From Opitutus sp. ER46 (lineage in GTDB: Bacteria; Verrucomicrobiota; Verrucomicrobiia; Opitutales; Opitutaceae), in assembly GCF_003054705.1 (NCBI RefSeq), contig NZ_QAYX01000022.1, positions 1 to 64,000 on the forward strand: 64,000 bases of DNA, given 5' to 3'. Below the pieces are notes generated by a model. That model saw nothing but the letters and a program-made list of their open reading frames with translations. It ran no database searches and was not told the origin of the DNA. Below, in pieces: positions 64 through 45,789 of this stretch (positions are counted from its first letter, which is position 1; each line of letters opens with the position of its first letter). Made by a program: the position numbers and the translations under genes.

Positions 64-90
64 CTTACTCTTCCTCTTTCTCTTTCTCTC
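64..90 (-). repeat. Pyrimidine-rich phrase repeat (family A, inverted copy)
   Basis: A run of CTTT, CTCTT and CCTCTTT words. Its complement reads GTAAGAG/GAAAGAG and matches the copies at 231-265, 18083-18122 and 23656-23700. It is the inverted partner of the copy at 231-265. Confidence 0.7.
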
Positions 91-173
91 AAACCCCGGC
101 CGGGTGCCATTGGCGCCCGAGCCCAGACCGACGTGTGCAGTGCCCTGCGGTGCTGCGAGGATTGTCCCCACTT

Positions 174-265
174 CAGTTTTCGCGGAGCGAAAACTGCGCG
201 GAGCGAAGACTGCTCAATCCCTCAATCCGGAGAGTAAGAGGAAGAGAAAGAGTAAGAGGAAGAGG
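174..265 (+). repeat. Hairpin plus purine-rich phrase repeat (family A)
   Basis: A perfect 10-bp stem, CAGTTTTCGC (174-183) with GCGAAAACTG (187-196) around a GGA loop, is followed after a partial second copy (GCGGAGCGAAGACTG) by a tandem run of AGAGTAAGAGG/AAGAG words at 231-265. The stem resembles the one at 22047-22070. Confidence 0.65.
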
Positions 266-344
266 CGGCGGGCCCCGGCCAGGGGCCCGCGGAGCCACGC
301 CTCGACATTTTCCCGGGGGCGCGCTTTCTTGGCGGGCTCGCATC

Positions 345-1979
345 ATGAAGAGGTTCTACATCACCACCGCCATCGACTACGTGAACGGTTCGCCGCACCT
401 GGGCCATGCCTATGAGAAGGTGCTGACCGATGTCATCGCCCGGTTCCGGCGGCAGATGGGCGACCAGGTGCATTACCTCACCGGCACCGACGAGCACGGC
501 CAGAAGGTCCAGGCGAGCGCCCGCAAGCTCGGCATCGAGCCGCAGCAGTTCGCCGATCAGGTGAGCGCGGAGTTCCGCAAGCTCATCACGCGGCTCGAAA
601 TCTCGAACGACGACTTCATCCGCACCACCGAGGAGCGGCACAAGACGGTCGTCCGCCAGGTGCTTCAGCAGCTCTTCGACAAGGGCGAGATCTACAAGGC
701 CGAGTACAAGGGGTTCTACTCCACGCGGCAGGAGCAGTTCCTGCAGGAGAAGGACCGGCTGCCGGGCGGCGCGTGGCCCGAGATCTACGGCGAAGTGACC
801 GAGATCACGGAGTCGAACTACTTCTTCAAGCTGCGGAATTACCAGGAATGGCTCGTCGAGTTCCTGACGAAGAACGAGAACTTCGTCTTCCCGCGCTACC
901 GGCAGAAGCAGGTGCTCGAGTTCCTCAAGGAGCCGCTCAACGACCTCTGCATCTCGCGGCCGCGCGAGCGGCTGGAGTGGGGCATCCCGCTGCCGTTCGA
1001 CGAGGGCTACGTGACCTACGTGTGGTTCGACGCGCTGCTGAACTACTACTCGGCGGTGGCCGACAAGCCGGGGGTCTGGCCCGCGACCTACCACGTCATC
1101 GGCAAGGACATCCTCGTCCCGCCGCACGCCGTGTACTGGCCGATCATGCTGCACGCGGCCGGCATCCCGCTGCCCGAGGGCATCATCGCGCACGGCTGGT
1201 GGCTGCAGAGCGGCGCCAAGATGTCCAAGAGCACGGGCAACGCGCTCAACCCGCTCGACCTGGTCGACGAGTTCGGCGCCGATGCCTTCCGCTACTTCCT
1301 GATCCGCGAGATGAACGTCGGCCAGGATAGCGAGTTCACGCGCGAGCAGTTCCTCGTGCGCTACAACAGCGAGCTCGCGAACAACCTCGGCAACCTCGTG
1401 AACCGCACGCTCAACATGACCACCCGTTTCGCGGGCGGCGTGCTGCCGGCGGCGGAGATCACCGAGGACCTCGAACGCTCGCTCCAGGAACTCTGGGCGA
1501 AGACGCGCGAGGAGGTCATCACTCTTTGCGAAGGCTTCCAGTTCCACACCGCGCTGGAGCGCACGATGGCGTTCCTCACCGAGACCAATGCGTACGTCGA
1601 GAAGCGCGCGCCGTGGAAGCTCGGCAAGTCGGCTGAGGCAAAGGATCAGGCTTTGTTGCGCACCTCCCTCGCCACCATGGCCGAGGCGCTTCGGCTGGCG
1701 GTCGCGGTGATGCAGCACGTGACGCCGACGGCCACACAGAAGATCAACGCCGTGCTCGGCTACACCCCGGGCGCGCGTTGGCAGGACGAACTCGTCTGGG
1801 GCGCCAAGCTCAACGGCGCCAAGGTCGAGGCCGCGCTCGTGCTCTTCCCGCGTCCCACGCCGCCCGCCACGCCCGCGCCGGCCGCCGGCGCGAAGCCGGC
1901 GGCGCCCAAGGCGAAAGCCCCGAAGCCGCCCAAGCCTGGCAAACCTGACACCGGCGCCGCGCCGACGGCGGGGCGCTGA
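345..1979 (+). CDS. metG: Methionine--tRNA ligase
   Basis: Charges tRNA(Met) with methionine in the cytoplasm. The class I signature HLGH lies at residues 18-21 and the KMSKS loop at 292-296. The protein has 544 residues when started at the ATG at 345; the frame is open further upstream, but that part is repeat-derived and the family's conserved start (FYITTAIDYVNG) begins right after this ATG. No zinc-knuckle cysteines are visible in the connective domain. Instead of an EMAP-type tRNA-binding domain, the last 40 or so residues are a Pro/Ala/Lys tail. It appears monocistronic. Confidence 0.95.
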   Translation: MKRFYITTAIDYVNGSPHLGHAYEKVLTDVIARFRRQMGDQVHYLTGTDEHGQKVQASARKLGIEPQQFADQVSAEFRKLITRLEISNDDFIRTTEERHKTVVRQVLQQLFDKGEIYKAEYKGFYSTRQEQFLQEKDRLPGGAWPEIYGEVTEITESNYFFKLRNYQEWLVEFLTKNENFVFPRYRQKQVLEFLKEPLNDLCISRPRERLEWGIPLPFDEGYVTYVWFDALLNYYSAVADKPGVWPATYHVIGKDILVPPHAVYWPIMLHAAGIPLPEGIIAHGWWLQSGAKMSKSTGNALNPLDLVDEFGADAFRYFLIREMNVGQDSEFTREQFLVRYNSELANNLGNLVNRTLNMTTRFAGGVLPAAEITEDLERSLQELWAKTREEVITLCEGFQFHTALERTMAFLTETNAYVEKRAPWKLGKSAEAKDQALLRTSLATMAEALRLAVAVMQHVTPTATQKINAVLGYTPGARWQDELVWGAKLNGAKVEAALVLFPRPTPPATPAPAAGAKPAAPKAKAPKPPKPGKPDTGAAPTAGR

Positions 1980-2005
1980 GCCGAGACGATCCGCGGCCAC
2001 GAGGG

Positions 2006-2039
2006 TGAACCACGAATGGACACGAAGGGACACGAAGGA
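2006..2039 (+). repeat. AACCACGAATGGACACGAA phrase repeat (family E)
   Basis: Two to three degenerate GGACACGAA units directly after metG. The same phrase occurs around ffh at 45464-45569 and 45748-45789. Confidence 0.65.
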
Positions 2040-2158
2040 TCGGGCGCAGCGTCGACGATCAGCCGCGGAATGCGGACTAATGTTCGTCGCTCGGCGGCTC
2101 GCCGTGTGAGTCGTGGGTCACCTGCGCGCCGCGGACTGGGTTCGGCGGCGACGCACCC

Positions 2159-44012: not shown

Positions 44013-44021
44013 CTGAGCCGC

Positions 44022-45365
44022 CTACATGCCTGGGAAGCCACCTCGGCCGCGCATGGCTTCCATCTGGCGCATCATCTTTTTCGCGCCGCCGCCTTTCATC
44101 ATCTTCATCATCTTCTGCATCTGCTGGAACTGCTTCAGCAGCTGGTTCACCTCGACGATCTTCACACCGGCGCCGTTCGCGATGCGCTGGCGCCGGCTGC
44201 CGTTGAGGACCTCCGGCTTGCGGCGCTCCTGCGGGGTCATCGACTTGATGATGGCTTCGGTGCGGTCCATCTGCTTGTCCGCGCCTTCCGGCAGCTCCAT
44301 CGAGCCCATGCCGGGCATCATCTTCATGATGCTCTGCATCGAGCCGAGTTTCTTCACCTGCTGCAGCTGCGCCAGGAAGTCCTCGAGGTCGAACTCCGCC
44401 TTGCGGAGCTTCTCCGCCATCTTCTCGGCGTGCTTCTGGTCGATCGTCTCCTGCGCCTTTTCGACGAGCGAAACGACGTCACCCATGCCGAGGATGCGGG
44501 AGGCGAGGCGGTCGGGATAAAATGGCTCGAAGTCGGCGGTCTTTTCACCGGTGCCGACAAACTTGATGGGCACGCCGGTGACCGACTTGATCGAGAGCGC
44601 CGCGCCGCCCCGGGTGTCGCCGTCGAGCTTGGTCAGGATCAGGCCGGTGAGCTGCAGCGCCTCGTGGAACGCCTTCGCCACGTTGACCGCCTCCTGGCCG
44701 AGGGCGCCGTCGGCGACGAGGAGGACCTCGTCGGGCTGGATGCGCTCGCGGAGGTTCTTCACCTCGGCGATCAGGTTGGCGTCGATCTGGAGCCGGCCGG
44801 CGGTGTCGAAAATGATGCAGTCCGCGGTGGCGGCCTGGGCGGCGGCGAGGCCGGCGGTGCCGATGGCGGGCACGTCCTTCGAAACGCGGTCGGCGTAGAA
44901 CCCGAGTTCCTCCTGCTTCGCGAGGATCTCGAGCTGGTCGATGGCGGCGGGACGGTAAACGTCGACGCCGACGACGAACGGTCGGTAGCCGCGCTTCTTG
45001 AGGAGCTTGCCGAGCTTGGCGGACGAGGTCGTCTTGCCGGAGCCGTGCAGGCCGACCATGAGAATCTTCAGCGGGCGGGCGGTCGAAAGCGTGGTGGTGC
45101 CCTCGCCGAGGAGCCGGACGAGTTCGTCGTGAATGATCTTCACGATCTGCTGGCCCGGGGCGACGCCCTTCAGGACCTCCTGGCCGACGCATTGCTGCTG
45201 CACGCGCTCCACGAACTCGCGGGCGACCTTGAAATGGACGTCGGCCGAGAGCAGGGCGGTGCGCACTTCCTTGAGTGCCTCCGCCATGTTTTCTTCGGAC
45301 AGACGGCCGACGCCGCGGAGGTTACGCAGGGCCTGGCCGAGTTTGTCGGTGAGGGATTCGAACAT
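44022..45365 (-). CDS. ffh: Signal recognition particle protein
   Basis: 447 residues from the ATG at 45365. SRP GTPase that binds signal peptides and 4.5S RNA and delivers nascent membrane proteins to FtsY. N domain 1-85, G domain with GLHGSGKTT, the insertion box [20 protein letters not shown] and [13 protein letters not shown], then a Met-rich M domain ending [18 protein letters not shown]. Full length. No 4.5S RNA gene was noticed nearby. Confidence 0.96.
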
Positions 45366-45463
45366 GGAAGGGCGACACGGTTGGCGTAAATTGCGGTGCG
45401 AAGCAACTACGACTACCGGGGCGTGGCGAGTTGGCCGCGAAGGGGACGAAAACCAAACCGGTG

Positions 45464-45569
45464 GGTTAACCACCAATGGACACGAGTAATTCGGGACGGA
45501 ATGCGGAGGCCGTGGCCGCTAAAGCTGCCTGCTCTATTCGTGTCTATTGGTGTCCATTCGTGGTTAACC
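45464..45569. repeat. Inverted pair of AACCACGAATGGACACGAA phrases (family E)
   Basis: GGTTAACCACCAATGGACACGA (45464-45485) faces its inverse ending GTGGTTAACC (to 45569), with a 50-bp spacer. The GGTTAACC ends are perfectly inverted. Confidence 0.7.
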
Positions 45570-45608
45570 GTTTTCAGGGGCGTATAGCGAACCGCAGAGG
45601 GAGGAGGG

Positions 45609-45713
45609 AAACCGCGAAAGGCGCGAAAGGACGCGAAAACCTGGGGTGGGCCGGAGCGGGCGGCGAGGACTGCGGGTTTTCGCGGCTGGGTTCGCGGGCG
45701 TTCGCGGTGAACC
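45609..45713. repeat. Inverted pair of CGCGAAAGG phrases (family F)
   Basis: Tandem ACCGCGAAAGG/CGCGAAAGG/ACGCGAAAACC at 45609-45641 and an inverted relative (GGGTTTTCGCGG, GGGTTCGCGGGCGTTCGCGG) at 45674-45713. Confidence 0.6.
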
Positions 45714-45747
45714 TTGGTTTGGCGGACTGAGCAGTTCGGAACGGGAG

Positions 45748-45789
45748 TAACCACGAATGGACACCAATGGACACGAATGAACACGAAGG
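45748..45789 (+). repeat. Family E phrase, fourth copy
   Basis: TAACCACGAATGGACACC followed by AATGGACACGAATGAACACGAA. Same phrase as after metG. Confidence 0.65.

Follow-up and report, generated by a model that had tools for sequence, protein, structure and literature searches.

What are the short phrases of drifting, similar words that recur between the genes of Opitutus sp. ER46? The question is raised by the first 64,000 nucleotides of contig NZ_QAYX01000022.1 (hereafter the window, meaning this whole stretch), where a preliminary description distinguished six families of phrases (A to F) and suggested that a single process lies behind unrelated phrases sharing one layout. That suggestion is borne out via cassette ends. 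We consider it highly probable that the phrases are the inverted ends of mobile gene cassettes of ~400–700 bp, or relics left by such cassettes. A complete cassette would consist of an end phrase, one short gene and an inverted end phrase. Two unrelated genes appear to share this layout, one for a GxxExxY protein (of the PD-(D/E)XK nuclease superfamily) and one for a four-helix-bundle S23 protein (a family that we take to be TIGR02436). Insertion of such units at gene junctions, inverted ends made of words, co-direction with neighboring genes and the loss of the gene from one copy are all seen in the genomes and plasmids described below. The end words differ from genome to genome, and one genome can harbor several word families.

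In genome G087, an open reading frame (ORF) of 124 amino acids lies between two inward-facing E-type phrases. It encodes a GxxExxY protein (TIGR04256, 5e-43, 146 bits against a cut-off of 35; PF13366 PDDEXK_3, 3e-43, 147 bits against 22). The genome to which the window belongs contains four matches to GxxExxY (TIGR04256) and eight to the four-helix-bundle family (TIGR02436), one of the latter a fragment. Words of families F and M flank the GxxExxY genes, and words of families H, D, B, K, A2 and A flank the four-helix genes. When fixed windows were scored for inverted arms against 333 control positions, 11 of these 12 genes lay above the 95% control level and nine above the 99% level (GxxExxY, 4/4 and 3/4; four-helix, 7/8 and 6/8). 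A first test with wider windows placed eight of the 12 above the best of 200 shuffles. In a phylum sample of 29 loci per family, the same two levels were exceeded by 25 and 21 GxxExxY genes and by 24 and 19 four-helix genes (49/58 and 40/58 when pooled); one four-helix gene of this sample (L417) is flanked by GGGAATC.

Cassette genes also occur on plasmids, where records annotate those of the four-helix family as "S23 ribosomal protein" or "four helix bundle protein". One four-helix query returned 29 plasmid records, 26 of them cyanobacterial, and one GxxExxY query returned eight. Among the 14 of these 37 records that were examined for arms (L427 and L428 among them come from a single strain and are near copies), inverted arms scored above the control maximum of 20.0 in 10 and above the 95% level in 12. 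End words at the four-helix genes are heptamers such as TAGGGAG, GGGAACA, GAGTCAG and GGGTGTA (Nostocales), and those at Bacteroidota GxxExxY genes are of the CACAGAGGA type.

The residues expected of a PD-(D/E)XK protein (G..E plus D-x(8-11)-E-x-K) are kept in 29 of 34 loci, a count for which both strands were read; the motif scans run beside the fold and word tests missed minus-strand genes. The motif was not found on either strand in L353, L370, L372 and L376, and it is present in L313, where the scan itself gave an antisense match. One GxxExxY protein searched against solved structures gave no match at E 0.01, and one four-helix protein matches structures 2gsc (XCC0516) and 2rld. A cassette four-helix protein (L394, 1456–1830) also weakly matches Avd, the accessory protein of diversity-generating retroelements (5e-6, below the family cut-off).

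Occupied and empty sites were found by comparing a 20-kb stretch of G087, which contains several E-type phrases, with 13 congeners. The 458-bp phrase-gene-phrase block of G087 is absent from six congeners, in which the flanks are joined with 2–3 bp between them. G337 has a homologous block (80%) at the next gene junction, and G179 holds another elsewhere. At a third junction, G338 and G344 each carry another GxxExxY gene (1e-42 and 2e-42; 145 and 144 bits against a cut-off of 35) within an insert of ~460 bp whose ends are of the AACCGCCAAG type, and G337 has a gene-less pair. These differences in occupancy indicate that, at the sites compared, phrases and gene are gained and lost as one unit. 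On plasmids, a four-helix unit of Trichormus variabilis is absent from plasmids of Nostoc linckia, N. carneum and Tolypothrix (98–99% identity). The empty form of this site is AAAAAGTAATTAACAAAT, and the filled form has GTAAT on both sides, a 5-bp duplication.

Decay is visible as well. Plasmid pC052_E of Nostoc sp. C052 (L438) has a left phrase and a fragment of the four-helix gene at a site that is empty or full on other plasmids; this is a decaying copy, intermediate towards a solo phrase. The sizes of 72 E-type pairs (including loci fetched for their gene) comprise seven of 433–452 bp and 22 of 62–92 bp. Separately, 15 short TIGR04256 matches, all below cut-off, occur in the genome of L142 (G351, Terriglobia OX638355) and span model positions 74–115 or 74–116; all cover the final third of GxxExxY, a pattern consistent with amplification of a truncated cassette.

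A cassette is co-directional with both neighbors in seven of eight chromosomal cases (home-made gene calls) and in 12 of 14 on plasmids. The expectation is ~0.32, half of the 64% of spacers that are co-directional (binomial 0.002 and 5e-5, respectively). Four-helix cassettes occupy the cas6|cas4 junction in Anabaena sp. 90 and Pseudanabaena galeata, and a cassette occupies the fabD|fabG junction in Sphingomonas; in Nostoc edaphicum, a cassette between two ribonucleotide reductase genes points the opposite way. The cas6/cas4 cassettes (L422 and L431) lie in CRISPR loci of two cyanobacterial plasmids, with cas1d annotated beside one. The cassette transcript is predicted to fold with its ends paired: at least half of the left arm pairs with the right in 63 of 65 cassettes with an arm score of at least 16.2 (85 loci scanned), a result that arises largely because complementary arms were picked. 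At gathering score, Rfam gave no match in 20 cassette loci (all 12 of the window's genome, G000, and eight of the 14 plasmid loci).

Family E allows phrases and genes to be followed across phyla. It is a 30-mer, AACCACGAATGGACACGAATNNACACGAAT, and copies with its exact first 20 bases were gathered from at least 120 genome-contig stretches and 10 IMG/VR stretches. Among the matches listed, the sources include Verrucomicrobia, Lentisphaerae, Kiritimatiellae, Planctomycetota, Hydrogenedentota, Acidobacteria, Desulforhopalus, Nitrosomonas, Spirochaetaceae, Chlamydiae and others. In 154 copies among these matches, the following ten bases are conserved except for two free letters, and flanking sequence is near random. 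The pattern AACCRCRRA-(3,4)-CRCRRA-(3,4)-CRCRRA, which covers E, F and their relatives, occurs in 156 of 288 phylum-sample genomes; its reversed control occurs in three, once each. The three words of an E/F phrase tend to agree (identical triples in 52/118 against 5.9 when shuffled, with copies fetched by the exact 20-mer left out), and its separators are usually different (of 226 pairs of equal length, 37 were identical; the exact 20-mer query had biased this set). In the congeners G135, G087, G338 and G340, a recurrent subfamily arranges three distinct words in order (GCGAAAG-GCAGAG-GCAAA); agreement of words within a copy is thus not a strict rule. A blastn search of plasmids with the E phrase, with the low-complexity filter on, gave a single 19-base match. 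Directly upstream of several E copies (L160, L184 and L230) a TAANCCGGANNATGCAG-like motif was seen by eye, perhaps an insertion sequence end that served as target.

Presence of E/F phrases tracks that of GxxExxY. Among 115 genomes searched for both genes, E/F phrases occur in 42 of the 51 with GxxExxY and in 0 of the 52 identifiable genomes (of 64) without it, 35 of which have a four-helix gene (Fisher 2e-20, from a hand-assembled table that leaves out 12 of the 64 genomes and counts among the 51 one, G131, with a match below the family cut-off). GxxExxY was also found above cut-off in 14 of 16 E-bearing genomes hand-picked across phyla. Genomes of genus g51 (e.g., G073, G079 and G085) have four-helix genes and neither E/F phrases nor GxxExxY, which makes them a convenient natural control.

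Within the window, all six families A to F were found. None of the 12 cassette genes of the genome lies inside it, and its copies are therefore gene-less pairs or solo ends. One phrase site of the window was compared with congeners for an empty site; at 65–75% DNA identity these were too distant. The copies, with positions in the 64-kb window, are as follows.

64..92, minus strand: family A phrase (AAGAGN hexamers), left arm of a gene-less inverted pair
231..265, plus strand: family A phrase, right arm, paired with 64..92
2011..2038, plus strand: family E phrase (CACGAATGGA words), single copy
3616..3655, plus strand: family B phrase (GAATGNA) with a GC-rich hairpin on its 5' side (hairpin by eye)
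7230..7262, plus strand: family B phrase with a 5' hairpin (hairpin by eye)
7371..7409, minus strand: family D phrase (GAAGCCN heptamers)
8283..8345, plus strand: family C phrase (GTTGCAGGTTTGAAAG words), left side of an inverted pair
8430..8562, minus strand: family C phrase, right side, paired with 8283..8345
14989..15165, plus strand: family C phrases, array in one orientation
18031..18078, plus strand: GAACGA phrase and GGCCGG hairpin
18085..18121, plus strand: family A phrase, single arm
23570..23606, minus strand: family A phrase, left arm of a gene-less inverted pair
23659..23702, plus strand: family A phrase, right arm, paired with 23570..23606
35400..35430, plus strand: family B phrase, left arm of an inverted pair
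35528..35562, minus strand: family B phrase, right arm, paired with 35400..35430
43826..43990, plus strand: family D array, whose words also flank a four-helix-bundle gene elsewhere in the genome (L357)
45468..45496, plus strand: family E phrase, left arm of an inward-facing pair
45532..45568, minus strand: family E phrase, right arm, paired with 45468..45496
45610..45640, plus strand: family F phrase, left arm, whose words also flank a GxxExxY gene elsewhere in the genome (L353)
45676..45716, minus strand: family F phrase, right arm, paired with 45610..45640
45750..45789, plus strand: family E phrase, single copy

The census was extended to 1.144 Mb of the 5.71-Mb genome (25 contigs), made up of the window and stretches of contigs C17 to C19, in which home-made calls give 900 genes. 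A detector of degenerate tandem words identified 161 intergenic and 54 coding regions in this sample, and 1, 0, 0, 0 and 0 regions in five first-order Markov sequences matched for intergenic length. The period is 6, 9 or 12 in 45 of the 54 coding regions. Repeat discovery over these 1.144 Mb replaces the six families with about 15 word families by our own grouping: AAGAGN, GTGARA, GAACGA, GRAGCCN, GAATGNA, ATAACNN, GCGGTAA, GGGARTGA, GAGGGATT, CTGAAGGG, GATCNGTCN, CACGAATGGA, CACGAAGAGG, CGCGAAAGG and GTTGCAGGTT. The drift of the words described earlier is real, and follows one plan in every family: the core is fixed and one to three letters are free. The phrases had also been said to occur only between genes. 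They mostly do, as 262 of 295 matches to the 15 word patterns are intergenic (89%, in a sample with only 13.3% intergenic DNA), although not strictly, since one of the 22 matches in the window (a 10-base K-type match, 7450–7459) overlaps a gene call. Family A is expanded in this genome, where AAGAGTAAGAG has 158 sites (nine for the reversed control) compared with 0–8 in 26 congeners. Eight relatives were sampled over 100 kb each; six have intergenic repeats in this style, built mostly from other words, and two have none. Strand or neighbor preferences of gene-less phrases were looked for in the sample, and none was strong.

The layout common to the families is inverted pairing, rather than a hairpin plus a phrase. 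Of 20 adjacent family A pairs no more than 300 bp apart in the 1.144 Mb, 19 have the order "-+" and one the order "++". The family A unit is a ~35-mer with recognizable inner and outer ends. Inverted pairs of B, C, E and F were seen by eye in the window, and terminal inverted repeats like those of miniature inverted-repeat transposable elements (MITEs) are present in these 19 A pairs and in the 72 E-type pairs. The perfect hairpin formerly placed at one end of A, B and C survives as a weak 5' excess: 32 of 262 copies (12.2%) have a stem of at least 6 no more than ~36 nt from the 5' edge, compared with 206 of 3,272 random intergenic positions (6.3%). There is no excess at the 3' edge (15 of 262 copies). 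The 5' hairpin is strongest in B (4/6) and K (3/7); with both excluded, 25 of 249 copies have one (p 0.015). A universal 5' hairpin was rejected on these grounds. Most hairpins are formed by a cassette's two inverted ends, or by those of a gene-less remnant.

How might such units move? The cassette protein would recognize the end words and take part in insertion, with a staggered cut as the probable source of the 5-bp duplication. Co-directional insertion would supply the transcript of the gene, making the unit dependent on operon transcription. By analogy with rRNA intervening sequences, the stem may be removed from the operon RNA by RNase III. Gene-less pairs and solo phrases could arise by internal deletion or by mobilization in trans.

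A number of observations count against cassettes as the source of the phrases, or against details of their movement. The cassettes encode no recombinase, and we know of no catalysis by four-helix proteins. Four genes of the window's genome (L351, L355, L356 and L362) did not exceed the shuffle maximum in the first, wider-window test, 18 of the 58 phylum genes did not pass the 99% control level, and one plasmid four-helix gene (L431) has direct rather than inverted arms. No cassette gene of the window's genome was seen with words of families C, Gt, I or A3. Target duplication is not established as a general rule: a second plasmid site has a tentative TTCTA duplication, a third has replaced sequence and no clear duplication, the G087 insert is ambiguous, and the excess of shared flank 5-mers in 72 E pairs is small (15 against 7.9 expected, reached by 3 of 300 shuffles). 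Within family A, an arm resembles its partner no more closely than it resembles arms from other pairs (768/5000 permutations), and the idea that paired arms are copies of each other is not supported. E/F phrases are lacking in nine of the 51 GxxExxY genomes, and of the two remaining hand-picked E-bearing genomes a Spirochaetaceae has a match below cut-off and a Planctomycetota metagenome-assembled genome has none. No GxxExxY similarity was found within 400 bp inward of 140 of 144 E copies (genome-contig loci, among the matches listed), a count made with a small GxxExxY query set taken from plus-strand frames. Lastly, according to Rehm et al., GGGAATC repeats generally lack an association with mobile elements, 90% being at the same ORFs in two xanthomonads (PMC4692102). 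These data are compatible with cassettes if the repeats are old relics, and give no support for recent mobility.

Alternative explanations fare less well. A Y1 HUH transposase of the RAYT type, which the preliminary description had considered, could have dispersed the phrases as repetitive extragenic palindromic (REP)-like units. There are 13 PF01797 (Y1) matches in the genome, one of them in the window, and a high enrichment of O. terrae in GTAG REPs is described by Di Nocera et al. (PMC3733652). Yet among the 13 Y1 loci, the 10 whose flanks were inspected by eye (for five, the flanks of an antisense ORF) each carry ends belonging to one of three different types, the phrases pair around a different class of gene, and E/F presence follows GxxExxY. 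With no phrase-type ends recognized by eye at these 10 loci, RAYT ends were rejected as the phrase source, and we regard dispersal by such an enzyme as very improbable. The Y1 gene of the window (RAYT/TIRYT-type) is at 38748–39707, followed by two copies of a 34-bp repeat at 39910–39978. The Y1 flank at L070 also contains a CGCAAAAGG-type word, and a TATCCGGACATTAT repeat, with 23 copies in the 1.144 Mb, is also clustered in the flank of one Y1 gene (L067).

We give just as little credence to the phrases being selected binding or regulatory sites (operators, terminators or RNA-processing sites) with regulators as the flanked genes. Conserved words with variable separators, inverted pairs that form predicted RNA stems and the avoidance of short divergent spacers (1/42 of 100–200 bp) would suit such sites. 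On the other side stand near-flat positions within co-directional spacers (35, 31, 32, 26 and 24), counts that vary among congeners (as for family A above) and occupancy that differs at orthologous junctions. Least likely of all is slippage, also offered earlier as a cause, with small genes inserted secondarily into or beside drifting microsatellites: some arrays are near-perfect tandems (GAGGGATT, GAAGCCG) and a single 10-nt word distinguishes two paralogous E copies (L218), but simple slippage does not fit words that agree while separators differ (52/118 and 37/226, above) and units that come and go as a block, nor does it fit the fixed edges of the 154 E copies, empty sites lacking both phrase and gene, or an exact E 20-mer that recurs in many phyla.

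Inverted cassette ends and their relics may have a wider reach. Tentatively, and with slightly less than even confidence, we suggest a broad class of minimal mobile elements without a classical transposase, in which the cassette protein alone would recognize tandem-word ends and insert the unit at operon junctions, possibly via an RNA folded as one stem. Within this tentative proposal, that protein would be a PD-(D/E)XK nuclease, or a four-helix protein working with a host or trans-acting enzyme, and the class would be a common source of the heptamers of the short tandemly repeated repetitive (STRR) type, GGGAATC repeats, 23S rRNA intervening sequences (IVSs) and CACGAATGG-type repeats in many phyla. 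There is a fair chance that the cassettes form a class of their own beside known relatives. Intergenic repeats of short words have been reported separately in cyanobacteria, Xanthomonas and Beggiatoaceae, and tying them to two widespread small genes would give one testable explanation for what has been described piecemeal. The rRNA IVSs would be placed in a wider family, and GxxExxY and four-helix proteins would gain a candidate role. Titles and abstract openings in the open literature gave no relevant paper for the exact phrase strings, and no link of four-helix/S23 proteins, TIGR02436 or heptamers to repeats or mobility.

How do the cassettes compare with known systems? RAYT/TIRYT Y1 elements also have inverted ends, and both kinds are found in the window's genome; the end sequences of the Y1 elements are of other types (10 loci, by eye). 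Like MITEs and REPs or bacterial interspersed mosaic elements, the phrases are short, non-coding, palindromic and intergenic, with lineage-specific expansion. They differ in that no matching transposase ends were found in this analysis, in their tandem-word ends with variable separators, and in the existence of gene-bearing cassettes without a recognized transposase, for which the candidate mobilizer is the cassette protein.

STRR sequences, the heptanucleotide repeats of heterocystous cyanobacteria, resemble the phrases, as do the GGGAATC and TAACTGA heptamers, in being short tandem words that are intergenic and abundant. The likeness extends to the Nostocales plasmids, where intergenic tandem heptamers form the inverted ends of four-helix genes. 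In two xanthomonads, 70 and 75 convergent pairs of GGGAATC are reported (PMC4692102), and STRR fingerprints serve for typing of Nostoc (PMC5088731). Unlike the cassettes, STRR-type heptamers are described in the sources consulted as repeats alone, with no gene-cassette link.

The closest parallels are with 23S rRNA IVSs. These are 428–444 nt long, with one short S23 ORF, 28-bp terminal inverted repeats and a long stem-loop; they have been termed selfish elements, with transposition proposed as their origin (PMC4990558). The TIGR02436 cassettes likewise have an S23/four-helix ORF inside, which the GxxExxY cassettes lack, and the terminal inverted repeats of the cassettes are predicted to fold as one long stem (63/65). 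Unlike IVSs, the cassettes lie between protein genes of chromosomes and plasmids, they end in degenerate tandem words, gene-less forms are much more frequent, and GxxExxY can replace S23; to our knowledge, no nuclease variant exists among rRNA IVSs. Given the lack of Rfam matches in the 20 cassette loci, we conclude that the cassettes appear to work in the manner of IVSs and are distinct from rRNA IVSs themselves.

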